Positions 12,853 through 63,920 of a stretch of DNA of 64,000 bases are shown piece by piece. The stretch spans positions 3,886,410 to 3,950,409 of the forward strand of contig NZ_KK853997.1 of the NCBI RefSeq assembly GCF_000696185.1, written 5' to 3'. The position numbers and the translations under genes are program-made. This DNA comes from Kitasatospora cheerisanensis KCTC 2395. Lineage in GTDB: Bacteria; Actinomycetota; Actinomycetes; Streptomycetales; Streptomycetaceae. The notes under the pieces were generated by a model. That model was not told the origin of the DNA, searched no databases, and was given only the letters and a program-made list of their open reading frames with translations. Positions within the stretch are counted from its first letter, which is position 1; every line of letters begins with the position of its first letter.

Positions 12853-13851
12853 TCAGCTCGCGGCGAGCAACTCCAGGGTGTCGATGACCCGGTTGGAGAA
12901 GCCCCACTCGTTGTCGTACCAGGCGACCACCTTGATGTGGCGGCCGTCGACCCGGGTCAGCTCCGAGTCGAAGATCGAGGAGGCCGGGTTGCCGGTGATG
13001 TCCGAGGAGACCAGCGGGTCCTCGGAGTACTCCAGCACGCCCGCCAGCTTGCCGGCGGCAGCCTCGCGGTAGGCGGCCAGCACCTCCTCGCGGGTGACGT
13101 CCCGGGAGACCGTGGTGTTCAGCTCGACGATCGAGCCGACCGGGACGGGCACCCGGATCGAGTCGCCGGCCAGCTTGCCGTCCAGCTGCGGCAGCACCAG
13201 GCCGATCGCCTTCGCGGCGCCCGTGGTGGTCGGCACGATGTTGACGGCGGCGGCGCGGGCCCGGCGCGGGTCGCGGTGCGGGCCGTCCTGGAGGTTCTGC
13301 TCCTGGGTGTAGGCGTGCACGGTGGTCATGAACCCGTGCTCGATGCCGGCCAGGTCGTCCAGCACGGCGGCCAGCGGGGCCAGCGCGTTGGTGGTGCAGG
13401 ACGCGTTGGAGACGATGGTGTGCGCGGCCGGGTCGTACGCCTCGGTGTTGACGCCGTAGGCGAGGGTGACGTCGGCGCCGTCGGACGGCGCGGACACCAG
13501 GACCTTCTTCGCACCGGCCGCGAGGTGGGCGCGGGCCGCCTCCGCGGAGGTGAACCGGCCGGTGGCCTCCAGCACGATGTCGACGCCGAGTTCGGCCCAC
13601 GGCAGGTCGGCCGGGTTGCGCTCGGCGAGGACCTTGATCCGGCGGCCGTCGACCACCAGCGTGTCGCCCTCGACGGTCACCGGGCGGCCGAGCCGGCCCG
13701 AGGTGGTGTCGTACGCCAGCAGCCGGCCCAGCGCGGTGGGCTCGGTCAGGTCGTTGACGGCGACGACCTCCAGCTTGCTGTCGCGTTCCAGCAGGGCGCG
13801 CAGCACGTTGCGTCCGATGCGGCCGAATCCGTTGACGGCGATGCGGGTCAT
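12853..13851 (-). CDS. gap: Glyceraldehyde-3-phosphate dehydrogenase
   Basis: 332 residues, the normal length. NAD-binding GFGRIGRN is at the N-terminus, the catalytic Cys is in SNASCTTNAL (about 152), HAYTQEQNLQD follows, and WYDNEWG is near the C-terminus. It oxidises glyceraldehyde-3-phosphate to 1,3-bisphosphoglycerate with NAD+ and phosphate. The gene stands alone, without pgk/tpi, so it may be a secondary GAPDH. Its upstream region holds four GGAAAGCGCTT boxes resembling LacI/CcpA-family operators, implying carbon-source control (inference). Confidence 0.95.
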   Translation of the reverse strand: MTRIAVNGFGRIGRNVLRALLERDSKLEVVAVNDLTEPTALGRLLAYDTTSGRLGRPVTVEGDTLVVDGRRIKVLAERNPADLPWAELGVDIVLEATGRFTSAEAARAHLAAGAKKVLVSAPSDGADVTLAYGVNTEAYDPAAHTIVSNASCTTNALAPLAAVLDDLAGIEHGFMTTVHAYTQEQNLQDGPHRDPRRARAAAVNIVPTTTGAAKAIGLVLPQLDGKLAGDSIRVPVPVGSIVELNTTVSRDVTREEVLAAYREAAAGKLAGVLEYSEDPLVSSDITGNPASSIFDSELTRVDGRHIKVVAWYDNEWGFSNRVIDTLELLAAS

Positions 13852-13966
13852 GGGTGGTGCCCTTCTGTGCGGGGTGGACTCCTCCACTTTCGCTCGCAGG
13901 CGGGGCCGGTAGCAGTGGCGTCCGTGCCATGGTTCGCAAGGATCGTGCCAACCCCGGCGACCAGCC

Positions 13967-14074
13967 GGAAAGCGCTTACCAGGCGCTCCGAGGAGCGCCT
14001 GCGCGCCATCCCGGAAAGCGCTTGCCCGACACCCCTGGAAAGCGCTTACCCGCCGCGCCCGGAAAGCGCTTTCA
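13967..14074. promoter_or_regulatory. Four-copy LacI/cre-like operator array upstream of GAPDH
   Basis: GGAAAGCGCTTACC occurs at 13967-13980 and 14037-14050, GGAAAGCGCTTGCC at 14013-14026, and GGAAAGCGCTTTCA at 14061-14074. The last three are spaced exactly 24 bp apart. Each has the AAAGCGCTT core with a central CG typical of LacI-family (CcpA cre-like) operators. Between sites one and two lies a separate perfect palindrome, AGGCGCTC-4-GAGCGCCT (13981-14000). The last site overlaps the stop codon of the upstream gene. Confidence 0.7.
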
Positions 14075-15028
14075 CTCCCCCTTGGCGAAGGTCCGCCGGT
14101 AGTCGCTGGGCGTCGTCCCGAGGATCTGCTGGAAGTGCGTGCGCAGGTTCGCGCCGGTGCCGAGGCCGGTCTCGGCGGCGATCCGCTCGACGCTCCGCTC
14201 GGAGCGTTCCAGCAGTTCACGGGCCAGGTCGACGCGGGCCCGCAGCACCCACTGCATCGGCGTGTAGCCGGTGTCCTCGACGAACCGCCGGGAGAAGGTC
14301 CGCGGCGAGACCGCCGCATGCCGGGCCAGCGCCCGGACCGTCAGCGGCTCGTCCAGCCGGTGCAGCGCCCACTCCCGGGTCGCGGCGAACCGCTCGCCGA
14401 TCGGCTCCGGCACGCTGCGCGGCACGTACTGCGCCTGGCCGCCGCTCCGGTACGGCGCGGCCACCAGCCGCCGCGCGGTGTGGTTGGACGCCGCCACCCC
14501 GAGGTCGCGGCGCAGCACGTGCAGGCACAGGTCGATGCCGGACGCCGCGCCGGCGGAGGTGAGCACGCTGCCCTCGTCGACGAACAGCACGTTCTCGTCC
14601 ACCCGCACCCGCGGGTACTTGGCGGCCAGTGCCCGCGTGTAGTGCCAGTGCGTGGTGGCCCGGCGGCCGTCCAGCAGTCCGGTGGCGGCCAGCGCGAACG
14701 CCCCGGTGGAGATCGCCGCCAGCCGCGCCCCGCGCGCGTGCGCCGCGCGCAGCGCCTCCACCACGGCGGCCGGCGGGTCCTCCCGGTCGGGGTGCCGGTA
14801 GCCGGGCACGAACACCGACTCCGCCCACTCCAACGCCTCCAGCCCGTGCGCCACGTGGTACGACAGCCCGTCCCCGCCGGCGACCAGTCCGGGTGCGGCC
14901 CCGCACACCCGGACCTCGTACGGCATGCTCGCGCGGGTCGAGAACACCTGCGCCGGGATCCCGACGTCGAGCGGCTTGGCGCCGTCCAGGACCAGCACGG
15001 CCACCCGGCGCAGACGAGGAACAGACAT
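14072..15028 (-). CDS. GlxA-family transcriptional regulator (DJ-1/PfpI + AraC HTH)
   Basis: 318 residues. The N-terminal half is a DJ-1/PfpI-like domain (VAVLVLDGAKPLDVGIPAQV; nucleophile-elbow segment AAISTGAFALAATGLLDGR, where the catalytic Cys is replaced). The C-terminal half is an AraC double HTH (LTVRALARHAAVSPRTFSRR, then AAETGLGTGANLRTHFQQIL). Members act as regulators rather than amidases. Target unknown. The gene lies upstream of GAPDH on the same strand but is separated from it by an operator array. Confidence 0.92.
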   Translation of the reverse strand: MSVPRLRRVAVLVLDGAKPLDVGIPAQVFSTRASMPYEVRVCGAAPGLVAGGDGLSYHVAHGLEALEWAESVFVPGYRHPDREDPPAAVVEALRAAHARGARLAAISTGAFALAATGLLDGRRATTHWHYTRALAAKYPRVRVDENVLFVDEGSVLTSAGAASGIDLCLHVLRRDLGVAASNHTARRLVAAPYRSGGQAQYVPRSVPEPIGERFAATREWALHRLDEPLTVRALARHAAVSPRTFSRRFVEDTGYTPMQWVLRARVDLARELLERSERSVERIAAETGLGTGANLRTHFQQILGTTPSDYRRTFAKGE

Positions 15029-63906: not shown

Positions 63907-63920
63907 GGAAAGCGCTTGCC
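63907..63920. promoter_or_regulatory. Fifth copy of the GGAAAGCGCTT operator
   Basis: GGAAAGCGCTTGCC, identical to the site at 14013-14026. It lies in the 284-bp gene-free end of the window, upstream of the acyl-CoA ligase (190 bp) or of a gene beyond the edge. Confidence 0.55.

Follow-up and report, generated by a model that had tools for sequence, protein, structure and literature searches.

The window analysed in this study is a stretch of 64,000 nucleotides from the genome of Kitasatospora cheerisanensis KCTC 2395, in which a 14-bp palindromic box with the consensus GGnAAGCGCTTnCC occurs four times between a gene for a type I glyceraldehyde-3-phosphate dehydrogenase (GAPDH) and the AraC-family regulator gene upstream of it, and once more 5' of an acyl-CoA ligase gene (Table 1). 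A preliminary description of this DNA had placed all five boxes correctly, and the 24-bp spacing that it claimed for three of them holds for boxes 2, 3 and 4, the gaps between successive boxes of the array being 46, 24 and 24 bp. The fifth box, which had been called identical, is identical to box 2, whereas boxes 1 and 3 and box 4 are written differently. When one mismatch was allowed, 10 strand matches were present in the window, compared with a mean of 0.41 in shuffled sequences. Box 4 extends over the AraC/FtrA-like stop codon (14072-14074). Boxes 1 and 2 are 46 bp apart, and between them, within the inserted stretch, lies a perfect 10-bp inverted repeat (CAGGCGCTCC-GA-GGAGCGCCTG, 13980..14001), at which a T run is absent.

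Table 1. Positions of the genes, boxes and aligned segments in the window
Feature	Position	Strand	Sequence or basis
Type I GAPDH gene	12853..13851	-	TIGR01534 above cut-off
Block conserved in 12/12 species, between insertion and GAPDH start	13909..13951	-	alignment
Inserted box array	13952..14074	.	alignment of 12 species
Box 1	13967..13980	+	GGAAAGCGCTTACC
Box 2	14013..14026	+	GGAAAGCGCTTGCC; 46 bp from box 1
Box 3	14037..14050	+	GGAAAGCGCTTACC; 24 bp from box 2
Box 4	14061..14074	+	GGAAAGCGCTTTCA, last base deviates; 24 bp from box 3
AraC-family regulator gene with DJ-1/PfpI domain (FtrA-like), upstream of GAPDH	14072..15028	-	
Lone box	63907..63920	+	GGAAAGCGCTTGCC; 5' of acyl-CoA ligase gene

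In the alignment, a block upstream of GAPDH is common to all 12 species, and the array is additional DNA that separates this block from the AraC/FtrA-like stop codon. Boxes 1-4 lie 116-226 bp upstream of the GAPDH start, beyond the conserved block. The array is absent from nine Kitasatospora relatives whose GAPDH is 97-99% identical, and K. griseola and CB01950 carry a shorter insertion with two to three degenerate boxes, one of which, like box 4, shares bases with the stop codon. The conserved block likely holds the GAPDH promoter or the site of another regulator, and no sigma-70-type consensus was found in it. This non-coding block (TTGGCACGATCCTTGCGAACCNTGGCAC...) adjoins the AraC/FtrA-like gene, and it is possibly the binding site of the regulator encoded there. 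Moreover, the GAPDH gene is not the lone gene that it had been taken for; the genome contains three GAPDH-family genes, and the one in the window is not the closest of them to the Gp_dh_C profile.

Spread and phasing of the boxes

The genome-wide scan for the box that the preliminary description had proposed was carried out, the genome statistics being based on pattern searches. In the 8.17-Mb genome, GGAAAGCGCTT gave 57 + 41 = 98 strand matches and the reversed control gave none; about 80 near-identical 14-bp boxes are present. With no more than one mismatch in the 12 fixed positions, 162 sites were found in this genome, compared with 26 for the control. The corresponding numbers were 111 in K. 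griseola, 119 in CB01950 and 63 in G041, and other Kitasatospora genomes were control-like except G054. Four Kitasatospora genomes are array-rich and belong to one clade, namely this genome, K. griseola JCM 3339, CB01950 and, in part, G041. Box pairs occurred in 6 of 395 genomes of the family. The four genomes of the box-rich clade have 26, 11, 7 and 4 pairs, and G022 and G042 have a single pair, which lies at the promoter of the LacI-family gene itself. In a tree of cobN the box-rich genomes cluster together, and G054 joins G041 weakly on a long branch. In G054, 96 sites matched with at most one mismatch (16 for the control), and neither arrays nor the LacI orthologue described below are present. 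The motif RQALSS/N, in repeated polyketide ketosynthase domains, accounts for five of the 18 perfect sites inspected there and not for the others. Because of this motif and the lack of arrays, G054 was set aside.

The arrays reach nine boxes, and adjacent spacings within them are quantised at approximately 24, 34, 45, 57 and 67 bp (24-25, 32-36, 43-48, 53-59 and 64-68 bp), with few in between. The best period was 10.8 bp (R = 0.78), which was matched by none of 20,000 uniform simulations; with the 24-bp class removed, still none of 20,000 simulations reached the observed phasing value. In this test, a CB01950 array of six identical 24-bp units was entered once. Such phasing is what a protein bound side by side to duplex DNA would select. 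The spacers are mostly unrelated, and flanks and spacers carry little information beyond the 14-bp box; conservation beyond the box, as looked for in a mobile or tandem repeat, was seen only in the one CB01950 array with identical spacers. In that array (G036:C1:457566-457699), six boxes are repeated in tandem at exactly 24 bp; it lies 9 bp after a stop codon and is a case of recent growth by duplication. As a general origin of the arrays, tandem duplication was rejected, since it holds for this array only. Orthologous places carry arrays with differing numbers of boxes (for example 9/1/2 and 5/2/2/2), and thus the places are kept while the copy number turns over. The array after an aldo/keto reductase gene is likewise an insertion; this locus has no box in eight relatives, two in each of K. 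griseola, CB01950 and G041, and five in this genome.

Placement between and inside genes

Genes were called with a simple codon-usage script in about 0.99 Mb around the boxes of this genome, K. griseola, CB01950 and G041, and counts of divergent gaps are therefore uncertain. A random spread across coding DNA had been named beforehand as an outcome that would speak against a regulatory role; the placement was strongly non-random, and some boxes do lie in coding DNA. The central 2-6 Mb of the chromosome holds only 7 of 48 clusters, compared with 24 expected (P = 3e-7), and the clusters are mostly on the arms. Among gaps of this genome with at least two boxes, convergent gaps hold 7 of 15 arrays, compared with 20% of array-free gaps (P = 0.02); the excess was not significant in K. 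griseola and CB01950. A box in a convergent gap cannot serve as a promoter operator for either adjacent gene. Between tandem genes, 9 of the 10 arrays lie closer to the stop codon on the upstream side than to the start codon on the downstream side (P = 0.02). Like box 4, the box at 938233 overlaps a stop codon. These positions would suit a roadblock at gene ends, in which a protein bound past stop codons halts read-through and convergent transcription and so insulates neighbouring genes. However, we consider such a role unlikely, as boxes inside genes that are conserved across species do not fit it, the placement bias is weaker in K. griseola and CB01950, and a position after the stop may only mirror the tolerance of insertions away from promoters.

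The neighbouring genes include cobN and those for a corrin methylase, KDPG aldolase, a SulP permease, an NHEJ-type DNA ligase, xylose isomerase, a flavohemoprotein and glycosyltransferases; a pathway shared among these neighbours was sought and not found. At a locus (G000:C1:901536-901619) with orthologues in G041, K. griseola and CB01950, a TTGACG hexamer upstream of a gene for a hyaluronate-lyase-like polysaccharide lyase is bordered by boxes; the arrangement recurs in G041, and the K. griseola locus carries the reverse complement of the hexamer. This site resembles a classical LacI-type operator, and together with the xylose isomerase site it may show an ancestral regulon. In K. griseola, box clusters adjoin a repeated tRNA-like stretch (G013:C8:39400-39800).

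Sixteen perfect boxes lie within called genes of this genome. The box in cobN reads GGCAAGCGCTTTCC in three species, compared with GCCAGGCGCTGGCC-like sequences in ten others; according to codons read off the alignment, it needs several changes, including rare A/T-ending codons and one amino-acid change. In the SulP permease gene, the 12 fixed bases are kept in four species, whereas the two free positions and the flanks vary, and the encoded residue is Lys in two species and Glu in two (codons again read off the alignment). In both genes, several substitutions built the boxes. Among orthologous pairs inside genes, a perfect box was kept in 47 of 55, compared with 14 expected from flank identity by codon position, a count that is inflated because the loci were fetched for having boxes. 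A conservative count, in which every unknown was scored as a loss, gave 10 of the 16 boxes of this genome kept in CB01950, compared with about four expected (P = 0.001). It could be argued that the boxes are decoys or tolerated sites that spread without a local role, mainly titrating the repressor or being nearly neutral; the genes beside them share no function, and many intragenic factor sites in E. coli, as described for PhoB, are transcriptionally inert and not conserved (PMC10294691). Nevertheless, the strict helical phasing, and a core that is kept in genes while the flanks diverge, indicate selection, which renders this explanation improbable.

A candidate binding protein and a proposed origin of the arrays

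The consensus palindrome has a central CG, as do operators of the LacI family. In this genome, a LacI-family gene (G000:C1:7259340-7260377) is divergent from a Gfo/Idh oxidoreductase gene followed by a DUF993 gene, and four boxes lie between them. Its product matches both PF00356 (LacI) and PF13377 (Peripla_BP_3) above the cut-offs, and the second-best match in this genome has 35% identity. Orthologues with 65-100% identity were found in 12 of 70 Kitasatospora genomes, with their first approximately 30 residues nearly identical, and a perfect box was present in the fetched flank of 11 of the 12, mostly directly upstream. Furthermore, box pairs with 38-46 bp spacing occur beside LacI homologues with 45-50% identity in Mycolicibacterium, Streptosporangium and other Actinobacteria. 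The reading of the boxes as LacI-family operators, made in the preliminary description, is supported by these associations. Every genome of the family with a box pair has the LacI orthologue, and most genomes with an orthologue show no spread; G042 and G022 have orthologues with the near-identical start and no spread of boxes. Overall, this LacI protein probably binds the arrays. A T precedes GG in 61% of the half-sites of boxes at LacI promoters and in 12% of those in other boxes, which leaves room for a related protein as the binder of the arrays.

The array might be thought to let a LacI/CcpA-type repressor control GAPDH transcription directly through the four boxes, which is how the preliminary description had read it. 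A LacI-type palindrome does lie 5' of the gene, and K. griseola and CB01950 have degenerate boxes there too; some other boxes are near likely promoters (xylose isomerase, the hyaluronate-lyase-like gene and the LacI gene); and global LacI regulators of central carbon metabolism, such as CcpA, FruR and GapR, are known (PMC4052901). However, neither of two properties looked for in a GAPDH operator was found. The site is not conserved with the gene, since the array is a clade-specific insertion that abuts the AraC stop codon upstream of the conserved block and is missing in nine relatives; and the boxes are not confined to promoters, equivalent arrays lying between convergent genes and after stop codons and many boxes lying inside coding sequence. 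Direct control of GAPDH is thus very doubtful, and from the sequence comparisons the GAPDH array would best be read as one of many platforms and not as a GAPDH-specific operator.

It is highly improbable that the palindromes are not protein-binding sites and represent 3' hairpins, terminators or a REP-like mobile repeat. In favour of this reading, the boxes can pair mutually, folding of the array transcript is slightly more stable than that of shuffled sequences (z = -2.2), and identical spacers mark one CB01950 array as a tandem duplication. However, the spacers are mostly unrelated, the spacing tracks the DNA helix and single boxes inside genes were built by point substitutions. A role as a terminator or RNA hairpin was likewise not favoured, and no terminator-like site was found.

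We propose instead that a local LacI-type operator may well have proliferated throughout the genome in one Kitasatospora clade, under a single sequence-specific binder. In the ancestral state, one to a few GGAAAGCGCTTTCC operators would let a local repressor control its own gene as well as the sugar-type Gfo/Idh-DUF993 cluster divergent from it. In the clade, the operator count would have risen to roughly 30-80 perfect copies, the intergenic ones arising from insertion and array growth, chiefly beside stop codons, and those in genes from point substitution. Neighbouring sites stand at 24 + n x 10.8 bp, so that adjacent dimers would hold a fixed rotational setting, and LacI dimers would fill the phased arrays, probably cooperatively. 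More tentatively, the main effect might be architectural, through bridging or clustering of distant sites by analogy with the GalR mega-loops of E. coli, rather than local repression. That a sugar repressor turned into a chromosome-organising protein, with arrays and coding sites mostly on the arms as a natural counterpart of laboratory lacO arrays, is conceivable but somewhat unlikely.

Relation to known systems

Nothing relevant was found in the literature on the exact box or on Kitasatospora LacI operators, and the palindrome and the candidate protein are in themselves ordinary for the LacI family. The nearest model is GalR of E. coli, whose scattered operators are joined over long distance, most of them without regulating a nearby gene, and these contacts have been proposed to restructure the chromosome (PMC5110547). 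Shared with GalR are a sugar-type LacI-family repressor, a similar hyphenated palindrome and operators dispersed over the chromosome far from the repressor's own sugar genes. However, the GalR sites listed in PMC5110547 are single or paired, whereas helically phased arrays of up to nine are present here, and no account of in-gene conservation or of array insertions limited to one clade was found for GalR. LacI-family regulons are local in about 90% of cases, and FruR and GluR likely became global through gradual expansion (PMC4052901). The boxes described here share with CcpA, FruR, PurR, GapR and PckR (PMC4052901) the LacI family, the expansion of a regulon from a local ancestor and, in some cases, a link to central carbon metabolism. 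The predicted regulons of those regulators are functionally related, whereas here the neighbours share no pathway and nearly half of the arrays lack an adjacent promoter. Moreover, most intragenic PhoB sites of E. coli are not conserved (PMC10294691), in contrast to the in-gene boxes. Orthologues in other Kitasatospora fit local, autoregulated actinobacterial LacI sugar repressors exactly, with one or two perfect boxes at their own promoter, and differ from the present clade, in which the box recurs dozens of times elsewhere. In the Noc/NBS and MatP/matS systems, tens of short palindromes are dispersed or regionally confined on the chromosome and conserved across genera; these proteins belong to other families, whereas the boxes here are limited to one clade and phased in arrays.

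If the proposed proliferation is true, it would show the operator of a local repressor multiplying to dozens of sites inside a single genus. Because living species would then represent the ancestral, the intermediate (G041) and the expanded state, one could test directly how a global or architectural DNA-binding protein originates, and the phased natural arrays would report on the side-by-side packing of LacI-family dimers on DNA. In addition, the in-gene boxes would represent a rare case in which the site of a regulator seems to override codon choice and even an amino acid.
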